A stretch of 64,000 nt of DNA from Siphonodentalium dalli. Lineage: Eukaryota > Mollusca > Scaphopoda > Gadilida > Siphonodentaliidae. Each line of letters begins with the position of its first letter. The first letter of the stretch is position 1. The position numbers and the translations under genes are program-made. The stretch is from NCBI GenBank assembly GCA_032622095.1, contig CP136068.1, forward strand, positions 152,483,151 to 152,547,150, read 5' to 3'. Below, in pieces: positions 1 to 30,080 of the stretch. The notes under the pieces were generated by a model. The model was given only the letters and a program-made list of their open reading frames with translations. It had not been told where the DNA came from and ran no database searches.

Positions 1-3000
1 TGGTTTGGGTGGTGGACACCTTAATGGTTATGGCCTGCTGTAACTCTCATCATTCCATGGTTTGGGTGGTGGACGCCTTAATGGTTATGGCCTGCTATAA
101 CTCTCATCATTCCGTGGTTTGGGTGGTGGACGCCTTAATGGTTATGGCCTGCTATAACTCTCATCATTCCATGGTTTGGGTGGTGGACGCCTTAATGGTT
201 ATGGCCTGCTATAACTCTCATCATTCCGTGGTTTGGGTGGTGGACGCCTTAATGGTTATGGCCTGCTATAACTCTCATCATTCCATGGTTTGGGTGGTGG
301 ACGCCTTAATGGTTATGGCCTGCTATAACTCTCATCATTCCATGGTTTGGGTGGTGGACCCCTTAATGGTTATGGCCTGCTATAACTCTCATCATTCCGT
401 GGTTTGGGTGGTGGACGCCTTAATGGTTATGGCCTGCTATAACTCTCATCATTCCATGGTTTGGGTGGTGGACGCCTTAATGGTTATGGCCTGCTATAAC
501 TCTCATCATTCCATGGTTTGGGTGGTGGACCCCTTAATGGTTATGGCCTGCTATAACTCTCATCATTCCGTGGTTTGGGTGGTGGACGCCTTAATGGTTA
601 TGGCCTGCTATAACTCTCATCATTCCATGGTTTGGGTGGTGGACGCCTTAATGGTTATGGCCTGCTATAACTCTCATCATTCCATGGTTTGGGTGGTGGA
701 CCCCTTAATGGTTATGGCCTGCTATAACTCTCATCATTCCATGGTTTGGGTGGTGGACACCTTAATGGTTATGGCCTGCTATAACTCTCATCATTCCATG
801 GTTTGGGTGGTGGACGCCTTAATGGTTATGGCCTGCTATAACTCTCATCATTCCATGGTTTGGGTGGTGGACACCTTAATGGTTATGGCCTGCTATAACT
901 CTCATCATTCCGTGGTTTGGGTGGTGGACGCCTTAATGGTTATGGCCTGCTATAACTCTCATCATTCCATGGTTTGGGTGGTGGACGCCTTAATGGTTAT
1001 GGCCTGCTATAACTCTCATCATTCCATGGTTTGGGTGGTGGACGCCTTAATGGTTATGGCCTGCTATAACTCTCATCATTCCATGGTTTGGGTGGTGGAC
1101 GCCTTAATGGTTATGGCCTGCTATAACTCTCATCATTCCATGGTTTGGGTGGTGGACCCCTTAATGGTTATGGCCTGCTATAACTCTCATCATTCCATGG
1201 TTTGGGTGGTGGACCCCTTAATGGTTATGGCCTGCTATAACTCTCATCATTCCATGGTTTGGGTGGTGGACGCCTTAATGGTTATGGCCTGCTATAACTC
1301 TCATCATTCCATGGTTTGGGTGGTGGACCCCTTAATGGTTATGGCCTGCTATAACTCTCATCATTCCATGGTTTGGGTGGTGGACGCCTTAATGGTTATG
1401 GCCTGCTATAACTCTCATCATTCCATGGTTTGGGTGGTGGACCCCTTAATGGTTATGGCCTGCTATAACTCTCATCATTCCATGGTTTGGGTGGTGGACC
1501 CCTTAATGGTTATGGCCTGCTATAACTCTCATCATTCCATGGTTTGGGTGGTGGACCCCTTAATGGTTATGGCCTGCTATAACTCTCATCATTCCATGGT
1601 TTGGGTGGTGGACGCCTTAATGGTTATGGCCTGCTATAACTCTCATCATTCCATGGTTTGGGTGGTGGACGCCTTAATGGTTATGGCCTGCTATAACTCT
1701 CATCATTCCATGGTTTGGGTGGTGGACGCCTTAATGGTTATGGCCTGCTATAACTCTCATCATTCCATGGTTTGGGTGGTGGACGCCTTAATGGTTATGG
1801 CCTGCTATAACTCTCATCATTCCATGGTTTGGGTGGTGGACCCCTTAATGGTTATGGCCTGCTATAACTCTCATCATTCCATGGTTTGGGTGGTGGACCC
1901 CTTAATGGTTATGGCCTGCTATAACTCTCATCATTCCATGGTTTGGGTGGTGGACCCCTTAATGGTTATGGCCTGCTATAACTCTCATCATTCCATGGTT
2001 TGGGTGGTGGACCCCTTAATGGTTATGGCCTGCTATAACTCTCATCATTCCATGGTTTGGGTGGTGGACGCCTTAATGGTTATGGCCTGCTATAACTCTC
2101 ATCATTCCATGGTTTGGGTGGTGGACGCCTTAATGGTTATGGCCTGCTATAACTCTCATCATTCCATGGTTTGGGTGGTGGACACCTTAATGGTTATGGC
2201 CTGCTATAACTCTCATCATTCCATGGTTTGGGTGGTGGACCCCTTAATGGTTATGGCCTGCTATAACTCTCATCATTCCATGGTTTGGGTGGTGGACGCC
2301 TTAATGGTTATGGCCTGCTATAACTCTCATCATTCCATGGTTTGGGTGGTGGACGCCTTAATGGTTATGGCCTGCTATAACTCTCATCATTCCATGGTTT
2401 GGGTGGTGGACGCCTTAATGGTTATGGCCTGCTATAACTCTCATCATTCCGTGGTTTGGGTGGTGGACCCCTTAATGGTTATGGCCTGCTGTAACTCTCA
2501 TCATTCCGTGGTTTGGGTGGTGGACGCCTTAATGGTTATGGCCTGCTATAACTCTCATCATTCCATGGTTTGGGTGGTGGACGCCTTAATGGTTATGGCC
2601 TGCTATAACTCTCATCATTCCGTGGTTTGGGTGGTGGACACCTTAATGGTTATGGCCTGCTGTAACTCTCATCATTCCGTGGTTTGGGTGGTGGACGCCT
2701 TAATGGTTATGGCCTGCTATAACTCTCATCATTCCATGGTTTGGGTGGTGGACGCCTTAATGGTTATGGCCTGCTATAACTCTCATCATTCCATGGTTTG
2801 GGTGGTGGACGCCTTAATGGTTATGGCCTGCTATAACTCTCATCATTCCATGGTTTGGGTGGTGGACGCCTTAATGGTTATGGCCTGCTATAACTCTCAT
2901 CATTCCATGGTTTGGGTGGTGGACGCCTTAATGGTTATGGCCTGCTATAACTCTCATCATTCCATGGTTTGGGTGGTGGACGCCTTAATGGTTATGGCCT

Positions 3001-3157
3001 GCTATAACTCTCATCATTCCGTGGTTTGGGTGGTGGACGCCTTAATGGTTATGGCCTGCTATAACTCTCATCATTCCATGGTTTGGGTGGTGGACACCTT
3101 AATGGTTATGGCCTGCTATAACTCTCATCATTCCATGGTTTGGGTGGTGGACGCCTT
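1..3157. repeat. 57-bp tandem array, 55 full copies plus a partial one
   Basis: A 57-bp unit repeats head to tail 55 times and ends in a partial copy at 3136-3157. The window starts inside the array, so its full size is unknown. Copies differ at only a few positions: GACGCC/GACCCC/GACACC, TTCCATGG/TTCCGTGG and TGCTAT/TGCTGT. Because 57 is divisible by 3 and the unit has no stop in one frame, a 1,062-codon open frame results. In that frame every variant is amino-acid changing (A/P/T, M/V, Y/C), there is no signal peptide or known domain, and the frame has no ATG-led unique start. I read it as satellite-type DNA and not as a gene. Confidence 0.93.
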
Positions 3158-25004: not shown

Positions 25005-25456
25005 TTAAAGGCCCACTTAATTTTCGAGTCACCAATTATTTTATTATAGTGCCTTGATATATGGGTTTAATAACAATCTATGACATAAAATATGATTAAA
25101 ATACTATAATTCATCACCATTTGGAATGTCTATGTCTCAGAATGTGCCCATAGAGTAATAAAAAGAAATAGCTTAAATCCTATAAACATTTCCCCCGCAT
25201 CTCGCTCCCAGAATGCAACAGAATTCAAAGAGTTATTCCCCTTCCATTGAAAATAATAGACTTTGCTGGACAATCCAGATGAAACTTAGCACAAACAACA
25301 CACTAACAACACGTCGGTACCTCAACAAAAACAACATGTTCACAGTTTATTACACCGGATAAGTTGATAATACAATGTTTTGGAGCTTCCTCTTTCAAAT
25401 GGTATATGTTTTATATTATGTGATCTGGGGGTTTTGAAAATTAAGTGTGCCTTTAA
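25005..25456. mobile_element. Family F MITE (TTAA-ended)
   Basis: TTAAAGGCCCACTTAATTTTC at the left and GAAAATTAAGTGTGCCTTTAA at the right form terminal inverted repeats. A second copy lies at 43464-43902. Confidence 0.8.
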
Positions 25457-25590
25457 TTGTTTTCACGATGTGTTTATGTATAAGTTTACATGTTTTATAT
25501 TATGTGATCTGGGGGTTTTGAAAATTAAGTGTGCCTTTAATTGTTTTCACGATGTGTTTATGTATAAGTTAACGTGTTTTATATTATGTT
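25407..25590. repeat. 82-bp tandem duplication ending at the Ig5 acceptor
   Basis: GTTTTATATTATGTGATCTG through TTTATGTATAAGTT occurs twice (25407, 25490). A third start at 25574 leads straight into the acceptor TCCATACAG. It overlaps the right end of the F element. Confidence 0.82.
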
Positions 25591-25598
25591 CCATACAG

Positions 25599-25724
25599 AC
25601 CCACCAGATCCACCAATTATATCTGGTTTAGACGACGACTTCTCCATTAACGCAGGACAGGCCGGCCAGCTAAGATGTTCATCGGTCGGAGGAAACCCCG
25701 TCGCTAAGCTGGTGTGGTATCGAG
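25599..25724 (+). CDS. NPHS1: Nephrin exon: Ig5 first half
   Basis: Exon between TCCATACAG and GTCAGT, phase 1-1. It encodes YPPDPPIISGLDD, Cys in GQLRCSSVGGN and Trp in AKLVWYR. The partner Cys is on the next exon (27349-27513). The last 34 exon bases plus donor are copied five more times downstream in a 64-bp array. Confidence 0.9.
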
Positions 25725-26062
25725 GTCAGTATGTCTGTTTGTTTATCTTATATAGGAAACCCCGTCGCTAAGCTGGTGTGGTACCGAGGTCAGTATGTCT
25801 GTTTGTTTATCTTATATAGGAAACCCCGTCGCTAAGCTGGTGTGGTACCGAGGTCAGTATGTCTGTTTGTTTATCTTATATAGGAAACCCCGTCGCTAAG
25901 CTGGTGTGGTACCGAGGTCAGTATGTCTGTTTGTTTATCTCATATAGGAAACCCTGTCGCTAAGCTGGTGTGGTACCGAGGTCAGTATGTCTGTTTGTTT
26001 ATCTTATATAGGAAACCCTGTCGCTAAGCTGGTGTGGTACCGAGGTCAGTATGTCTGTTTGT
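25691..26062 (+). repeat. 64-bp tandem array of the Ig5a exon end and donor (6 units)
   Basis: Units start at 25691, 25755, 25819, 25883, 25947 and 26011. Each downstream unit holds a pyrimidine-rich TGTTTATCTTATATAG acceptor, 33 nt of exon copy and a GTCAGT donor. The 33-nt segments (for example 25756-25788) are phase 1-1 and encode GNPVAKLVWYR in frame. Differences within them are synonymous (TAT/TAC, CCC/CCT). Confidence 0.93.
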
Positions 26063-26166
26063 AAAAGCTTTTATATGAATCCTGTAGTACAATTCTTCAT
26101 CTGTTAAATGCTCCAAACCGAACTGTTTTGGTACATTAGTCATCAGTGAATCATCAGCTTGATGAC

Positions 26167-26485
26167 CAAACTCCAGGCAGAGTTATCTCCCATCGCTCTG
26201 CTGAGATACCACTGCCATAGGGACATTTGGTAAGGATTTCTATGTGTTCTTAGTTCTTATGTTTTAGGATTAAAATTGTCTATGTCTGCAGGCTCAGTTC
26301 ATATTGTTCTTATCAATACCGAAAGAATTACCATTATTGCAAACTTTTGGTGGTCAAAATAAGATAATAGGTGACTAAATATAGTTCTGACGATATGTAA
26401 AAATAAATGTATCGGTCCGCAAAGTACCATCCTTGTGGCAGTGCTATATCGCAGTGATAACGAAGAGAGCGCTGCACGGAGTTTG
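26167..26485. mobile_element. Family E MITE with 9-bp target duplication
   Basis: CAAACTCC opens and GGAGTTTG closes it. CTTGATGAC flanks both sides exactly (26158-26166, 26486-26494). It is inverted relative to the copy at 33144-33485. Confidence 0.82.
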
Positions 26486-26504
26486 CTTGATGACATCAAT
26501 CATA

Positions 26505-26949
26505 CAAGCCTGCAAATAGGGTGTCTGTCATTTGCAGAATGAGGTCCCCAGAGGGTGAATTTATAGACTCTATCCTGCTCAGTGGGGTAGCATCACTAAA
26601 TTCACCCCCCTCTGGGGACCTCATTCTTAGGCCTCAACTACTATGGGAGACCTAGAATCAGATTGAATTTCTACAGTTGAAGTTGGTGATGTTCAACCAT
26701 TATTCGCCTCGATTATATATTTTATCTTCTACAAATTATGGGATATTGAAACTGAACAGAATGGAAAAAATAACTAAAAACTATGTTAATTTGAGACTAT
26801 AGATACTTCTCAGAAGATGGAACCTAAGCAGAATGAGGTCTCCAGAGGGTTAATTTTGTGACACTAGCCCACTGTGTGGGATAGCATCACTAAATTCACC
26901 CTCTGGGGACCTCATTCTGCAAACGACAGACATACTATTTGCTGGCTTG
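26505..26949. mobile_element. Family A MITE, long form, exact 8-bp target duplication
   Basis: CAAGCCTGCAAATAG opens and TGCTGGCTTG closes it. CAATCATA is found on both flanks. Two hairpins bracket a conserved internal segment. Confidence 0.92.
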
Positions 26950-27348
26950 CAATCATATATCCATAGCCAATAATTGTATTAAAGTGATATGAAACACTCC
27001 GTTGTTGTGATCAAAAGGGAATAGCCAATAAAGGACTTATTTTCAGTTATTTTTTATTATCCAAATAAGCAGCACGGAAAGTCATTCTTGAATATCAATT
27101 AAGTACAAGGGTTTGATTATTGGTGGGTAAACTCACTCTGAATTCCGGTAAATATTTAAAATACCATGCCTGGGTTCTCACCTATCACCAAAATAATATG
27201 TCTTTAAATTACCCAACTTAAAAATGTCTTCCAATTTCAATAATAGAACAGAATCTAACACTGGCTTCTTCACTTGTGATTGAGTTGTCTAATAACCTTT
27301 TGTGTGTATCCTTTTAAAGTTTAAATTTCATTTATCTCTTCCGAATAG

Positions 27349-27513
27349 GTAACAGAAAGATTGCCACAAGGACGGAGAAGAGTGGAAACATGGTTGAGAG
27401 TGAGATAAATATTGTAGCATCACCAGCAGATAACGGCATCGTGTATAAATGTAAAGCATCGAATGAAGCAACAAGAACTCCACTCGAGGCCAGAGTCACC
27501 GTCAATGTGTTCT
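27349..27513 (+). CDS. NPHS1: Nephrin exon: Ig5 second half
   Basis: Exon between CCGAATAG and GTGAGT, phase 1-1. It encodes GNRKIATRTEKSG, then ASPADNGIVYKCKASNEA with the F-strand Cys, and ends VTVNVF. Joined to 25599-25724 it restores one Ig fold. Confidence 0.9.
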
Positions 27514-28377: not shown

Positions 28378-28425
28378 ACAAAAGAATCTCCCATACGATT
28401 GATAATAAGATATCTATTTGATCAG

Positions 28426-28662
28426 TTTAGCTCCACCCGAGTCAGTTACGATTCAGTAATGAACATATTTGATTTAAATGTTTAATAATTTTAGTTCGAC
28501 CCGAGTCAGTTACGATTCAGTAATGAGCGTACTTGTTTAATAATTTTAGTTAGACCCGAGTCAGTTACGATTCAGTAATGAGCGTACTTGTTTAATAATT
28601 TTAGTCCCGCCTGAGTCAGTTACCATTCAGTATTGAGCATATTGTTTGCTTGATCATTTTAG
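28426..28662 (+). repeat. Four decoy copies of the Ig6 3' splice site
   Basis: TTTAG + TTC(G)ACCCGAGTCAGTTACG units lie near 28426, 28490, 28544 and 28602, upstream of the true acceptor at 28662. Each decoy keeps AG and the start of the exon but reads into TAA after nine or so codons. Confidence 0.85.
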
Positions 28663-28965
28663 TTCCACCCGAGTCGGTGACGATCACGAGTTTGCCAGCT
28701 GTCGCGAGGCAAGGGGAGGATCTTCAGCTGACATGTGTATCATCGTCGAGTAACCCGGCATCTAACATCACGTGGATAAAGAACGGTCGAACACTAATGG
28801 GGCAGGAGACATCAGTCATAAGTTCATCAAATGGCGGCAAAGCAACAACTAATACTCTCACCATCTCGCCGGATGCTTATGATCATCGGGCAACCTACAC
28901 TTGCCGAGCAAAAAATCCCAAATTACAACTGTCGGCCAATGATGCCATCACCCTAAGTGTCCTAT
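28663..28965 (+). CDS. NPHS1: Nephrin exon: Ig6
   Basis: Single-exon Ig domain between ATCATTTTAG and GTAAGT, phase 1-1. It encodes FPPESVTITSLP, Cys in LQLTCVSSSSN, Trp in ITWIKNG, Cys in ATYTCRAKNP and the end ITLSVL. SNITW is a potential N-glycosylation site. The start of this exon is tandemly duplicated four times upstream. Confidence 0.9.
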
Positions 28966-29835: not shown

Positions 29836-30080
29836 AGCCCTTACATGATGGGAGTTGCCATGGTGCAGCATTAAAGATCCTGTGCCAATGCATTTTCTTA
29901 TATGTGAGTCTTCCATAGGGAGCCTCGCATATATAAGATAATATACTGGCTTACAAGGTCAATGTAAATATTGTTAGGCTAATGTATTCTATTATATATA
30001 GGAGACTCGCATATATTACAGAATGCATTGGCACAGGGTTTTCACAAAATTTCAGAAAGCTCCAGTCATGAAAGGGTTAA
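29836..30080. mobile_element. Family C2 MITE
   Basis: It runs from TAGCCCTTACATGATGGGAG to TCCAGTCATGAAAGGGTTAA with two diverged core palindromes. It keeps the right end that was lost in the copy at 20895. Confidence 0.83.

Follow-up and report, generated by a model that had tools for sequence, protein, structure and literature searches.

The array at the end of exon Ig5a

The window, meaning the whole stretch of 64,000 nucleotides analysed here from the scaphopod mollusc Siphonodentalium dalli, carries what looks like a nephrin/SYG-2-like immunoglobulin (Ig) gene, in which one Ig domain, Ig5, is split between the exons Ig5a and Ig5b (Table 1). The junctions of these two exons, both in phase 1, were assigned from sequence, not from RNA. 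The joined domain matches the Pfam Ig families Ig_2 and I-set, and the top matches in the PDB are titin (E 2.4e-17, over several domains) and SYG-2 (E 1.6e-14), the latter of which we take to be a member of the nephrin group. No Ig5 paralogue free of the array was found in the genome searched (G000; 2.23 Gb in 9 contigs), where the four matches all lie within this same gene.

Table 1. Features at the Ig5a junction and other arrays over Ig-exon junctions (window coordinates unless a locus is named; a stroke marks an exon-intron junction)
Feature	Position	Strand	Details
Exon Ig5a	25599..25724	+	nephrin/SYG-2-like Ig gene (putative); first half of Ig domain; ends VWYR/G; phase 1-1
64-bp tandem array	25690..26062	+	exon end, donor and intron start; TRF, direct cutting
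Copy 1 of exonic segment	25692-25724	+	inside Ig5a
Spacer 1	25725..25755	+	31 nt; GTCAGT donor, T-rich stretch, ATAG acceptor-like end
Exon-like copy 2	25756..25788	+	33 nt; GNPVAKLVWYR in phase 1
Further spacers	begin 25789, 25853, 25917, 25981	+	layout as spacer 1
Exon-like copy 3	25820..25852	+
Exon-like copy 4	25884..25916	+
Exon-like copy 5	25948..25980	+	CCT variant; preceding spacer has the sole spacer variant
Exon-like copy 6	26012..26044	+	CCT variant; repeat end 26062 lies inside the following intron stretch
Exon Ig5b	27349..27513	+	next genuine exon; donor TCT/GTGAGT
Older array at Ig6	28420..28684	+	units of ~55 bp with acceptor and first codons of Ig6; same gene
Acceptor array	L027 7176-7784		116 bp x 5.2; Ig exons region on C9
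Donor array and acceptor array	L032 8873-8946 and 9174-9598		34 bp x 2.2 (donor) and 48 bp x 8.9 (acceptor); C9
Donor array	L038 5390-5874 (also L017)		47 bp x 10.6; C4 ~35.248 Mb; Ig exon end SGSPTPEVSW and GTAAGT donor

At the end of Ig5a, TRF reports a tandem array of 5.8 copies (98% match, score 718, spanning 373 bp), and direct cutting in register divides the 64-bp unit into 33 nt of exon end and 31 nt of intron beginning with the donor GTCAGT. Both procedures bear out the earlier note, which had described such a unit over exon end, donor and part of the intron in six copies, and the cutting upholds its further claims that every extra unit offers an AG, 33 nt and a GTCAGT donor in phase 1-1, adding the 11 residues GNPVAKLVWYR in frame, and that all differences within the 33-nt segments are synonymous. 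These six segments, which recur every 64 nt, vary at two sites (TAT or TAC, CCC or CCT), and those of copies 2, 3 and 4 are identical. The five spacers, all 31 nt long with GTCAGT at the start and ATAG at the end, vary at one of their 31 sites; GTCAGT is also present after copy 6, where the repeat stops, and all six donors are identical.

The 64-bp unit was found at this locus only in the genome search, subject to the caveats of the tool. A degenerate seventh copy past 26062 is not supported, the local similarity there being equalled by 155 of 2000 shuffles, which is not significant. As a templated origin for the spacer stretch TTATCTTATATAG, the best other match in the window (12 of 13 at 29929, minus strand) is AT-rich and unconvincing. 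Upstream of the exon lies a separate repeat, an 84-bp unit in 2.2 copies (window 25406-25589); given that it ends 9 bp before Ig5a, recent duplications stand on both sides of this exon. At the very start of the window (1-3157) is a 57-bp satellite of 55 copies.

Frame and splice signals

The in-frame appearance of the extra copies involves less coincidence than it might seem, since the exonic segment is already in its native frame and the sole coincidence is thus an AG in phase 1, a matter of one in three. Similarly, the synonymous nature of both exonic variants is weak evidence of constraint, because 11 of the segment's 33 possible transitions leave the protein unchanged, and two out of two would do so by chance at about 0.11. 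An array of alternative exons would be expected to conserve its exonic parts more than its spacers, and such a difference is not seen (2/33 against 1/31 variable sites, a comparison of little power at this age). Taken with the share of synonymous transitions, these figures give no sign of extra exonic constraint, the power being low and the array young.

Splice sites were scored with acceptor and donor matrices trained on the Ig matches of this genome, the window's own sites included, and were ranked unfiltered among 69 acceptors and 68 donors; an earlier filtered count had dropped 4 of 69 acceptors (score at most 0) and 7 of 68 donors (at most 4), and 60 acceptors score above 4. The acceptor score takes in intron bases only, because including three exon bases penalised AG/G sites. 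On this scale the repeat donor GTCAGT scores 8.4 (rank 29 of 68) and the true Ig5a acceptor 8.1 (rank 22), while the extra acceptors reach 7.4 (rank 17 of 69) in four cases and 6.5 (rank 15) ahead of copy 5. All five therefore outscore the genuine acceptor at 27349 (-0.2, rank 4 of 69), the weakness of which is perhaps overstated given that the matrix register is fixed and its tract is moved upstream by GAAT.

The splice signals nonetheless point both ways, since the five well-scoring extra acceptors lack a TNA branch motif between -15 and -60, the AG-free stretch before them being 24 nt. Such a motif is present in that interval for 51 of the 69 reference acceptors (49 of the 60 with scores above 4). 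This test is not decisive, because the genuine Ig6 acceptor is among those in which it detects no motif, as are 18 of the 69 references, and because the extra acceptors do have a TNA at -11, which is counted once the limit is relaxed to -10.

Arrays over other Ig-exon junctions

Five further arrays lie over splice junctions of Ig exons in this genome, three on the acceptor side and two on the donor side, among 89 de-duplicated Ig matches that come mostly from three genome regions. The first belongs to the same gene (TRF 28479-28684, 85%, with the first copy added by eye); its unit was found at a single locus in the genome search, and the genuine acceptor, with the exon start at 28663, is the last copy. 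Of the three arrays on C9, two flank one exon, and the donor array there, at 80% match, is the weakest of the five cases. The donor array on C4 repeats an Ig exon end right after the core Trp, in a large multi-Ig region which we would guess to be titin-like, and its units have acquired indels and altered donors. In each, the added copies sit on the intron side. Eight extra copies of the three acceptor arrays were translated (L027 three, L032 two, Ig6 three), and all eight run into stops. Inspection by eye showed none of the five to contain an exon-like unit that is in frame and has both splice sites; of the six arrays, that of Ig5a alone was seen to offer an acceptor and a donor with an open frame throughout its extra copies. 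Left out of this count is a diverged upstream copy of an acceptor and exon start at about 4640-4790 of L028 (minus strand), perhaps an old array of the same sort.

Whether arrays seek out junctions can be asked of a sample comprising 19 of the first 25 loci, 14 contiguous pieces and the window, in which 89 of 91 Ig matches remained after de-duplication, the search having used a self-built HMM trained on 23 matches in the loci and 5 domains of the window. By TRF, arrays with a period of at least 20 occupy 31,969 of 266,034 bases, slightly double counted since some loci overlap. Five of 126 junctions fall inside arrays against 12.3 +/- 3.3 expected from 2000 array shifts, so that junctions appear to be avoided rather than sought; at most five junctions in arrays arise in 1.15% of the shifts. 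Such avoidance is as expected if most such events do harm and few are tolerated. These junctions were assigned by script, in phase 1 only, and some are surely wrong (low-scoring ones inside multi-domain exons); the C4 donor, a phase 2 site, escaped the script and was picked up by eye; it brings the arrays to six in total and stands outside the 5 of 126. The count is likewise not blind to the window array, because that array prompted the study. Sushi-domain exons, tried as a second base-rate sample, were useless, as one giant exon accounted for 17 of 20 loci; in the remaining three (L041, L056 and L058) TRF gave a single array with a period of at least 20, at 547-967 of L041, which is not over the match.

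Readings of the array

Arrays of this kind have been defined in lancelets as mirages, in many repeats of which AG and GT signals form possible cryptic sites, with published units of 10-72 and 150-160 bp and haplotypes of 6 and 3 units (PMC3087553). In the four lancelet genes concerned (Adh3, globin, TnC and PGBD5), splicing is reported or suggested to be undisturbed (PMC3087553, PMC3902484): the data for Adh3 and globin suggest regular splicing (PMC3087553), and the Adh and TnC arrays are stated to generate no aberrant mRNAs (PMC3902484). One of these two sources raises the possibility that mirages are general in cephalochordates. The Ig5a array resembles them in being minisatellite-like in size and copy number (64 bp x 5.8), in combining exonic and intronic sequence in each unit over a junction (33 nt and 31 nt, with the exon as assigned above), and in recurring, through the five sister arrays, at other donor and acceptor junctions of the same genome.

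We therefore consider it most probable that the Ig5a array is a young, near-neutral mirage over which the gene would be spliced normally, from 25724 to 27349. A tandem duplication with two breakpoints, the first within the final 33 nt of Ig5a and the second some 31 nt inside the intron, would have brought T-rich intronic sequence up against an exonic AG, and since the duplication joined these two, each new copy would possess an acceptor-like AG together with a copied donor. Slippage or unequal exchange may then have expanded the array to six copies, with the first donor, at 25724, presumably still spliced to 27349 and the extra copies now intron. That exonic and spacer parts vary alike counts in favour of a mirage, and the sister arrays would lend it further support, as, by analogy, would the lancelet arrays reported to splice normally. 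On the other side, the higher scores of the extra acceptors than that of 27349 would favour use of the copies, and a phase-matched segment of 33 nt with only synonymous variants is what a used exon shows also.

Given that all six donors are identical, donors 2 to 6 might compete with the first, leading to premature stops and lowering gene output according to copy number. Read-through of spacer 1 from Ig5a does meet a TAA in copy 2, and path enumeration under a minimum intron length of 40, 60 or 90 nt leaves 24 of 32 splice paths closed. Such an effect is nevertheless unlikely in light of the lancelet reports of mirages without aberrant mRNAs (PMC3087553, PMC3902484), and there is no sign of selection keeping the array.

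It is more doubtful still that the copies form a ladder of in-frame microexons, variable in copy number, seeded by the one duplication, which would have made an acceptor out of an exonic AG, and helped by the weak next acceptor, from which one or two non-adjacent copies would be spliced in so as to lengthen Ig5 by 0, 11 or 22 residues after its core Trp. The earlier note had proposed such microexons, having observed that the 31-nt gaps are too short to splice and that alternate copies, 95 nt apart, could be joined; the arithmetic is right under assumed minimum introns of 40, 60 or 90 nt, and the eight open paths then yield exactly 0, +11 and +22 (were 31-nt introns allowed, 32 of 144 paths would be open, reaching up to +55). 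The AG...GT in-frame anatomy stands, and in favour of inclusion the extra acceptors, like the donors within the range of real sites, outscore their weak competitor at 27349. The domain with one extra copy also still clears the threshold in each of the five Pfam Ig models matched before, with Ig_2 (38.2 to 39.0) and C2-set_2 rising and I-set, Ig_3 and ig (26.0 to 22.4) falling, although an insertion costs a profile little. The tuning of Ig5 by microexons fares poorly, since the exonic parts have no excess constraint, the extra acceptors lack a TNA motif between -15 and -60, and the sister arrays have no such units. Moreover, 33-nt exons 31 nt apart would be expected to crowd splicing factors, and folding would probably suffer from an extra C strand by the Ig core. 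Were this reading true, it would catch the birth of an exon from a mirage in the act.

An assembly artefact, with the copy number wrong or the array spurious, is very improbable: copies 2, 3 and 4 do share one exonic sequence, and one lancelet mirage is reported to have been aberrantly assembled in the draft genome (PMC3087553), but variants distinguish other copies, the array is short and the same assembly has comparable arrays at other places.

Several known systems come close to this locus. Lancelet mirages likewise have short units over a donor-side or acceptor-side junction, many with AG and GT, and a genuine exon at the array end; the host here is of another phylum by its FMRFamide marker, and every extra unit has an AG and a donor around an in-frame 33 nt. 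In human duplicated genes, minisatellites across exon-intron boundaries (average 30-bp units x 4) are able to form novel introns (PMC2812944), where transcripts show changed splicing. The Siphonodentalium array, for its part, is described from sequence, and no near paralogue of the Ig5 domain outside this gene was found in G000. Introns born by duplication have been reviewed (PMC4974935), with Drosophila cases added by PMC2891723; there too duplication supplies the splice signals, and a case in potato crosses the boundary, but those new introns are seen in transcripts, whereas the present array, as long as no copy is used, just adds length to an existing intron. Tandem duplicated alternative exons also consist of several exon-like copies of like size and phase in a row, yet the copies here are nearly identical and, at 31 nt apart, too close to join. 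The Ig5a array is probably of an ordinary kind, in a genome where such repeats abound, and what is new is modest, namely mirages outside lancelets. A literature search (titles and abstract openings, mostly outside subscription journals) showed no report of junction minisatellites in molluscs, a scope too narrow for us to claim them as unreported.

More broadly, six mirages in a small sample of Ig exons from a mollusc would mean that mirages are more widespread among animal genomes rich in minisatellites. Such arrays amount to natural experiments on spliceosomal choice among near-identical sites and supply material from which new exons and introns can arise; an inner mirage repeat has been proposed to become an exon, with indirect support from degenerate repeats in one globin intron (PMC3087553).

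Among the loci retrieved from this genome, one on C7 (L060, C7:147978201-147979200, minus strand) served as a marker of the host's phylum: it contains an exon of an FMRFamide precursor, in which a single frame encodes 12 FMRFG and 2 FLRFG repeats. The model of molluscan haemocyanin (PF14830) gave no match, which is uninformative because the control genomes gave none either. Precursors with such repeats are typical of molluscs and annelids, not of lancelets.
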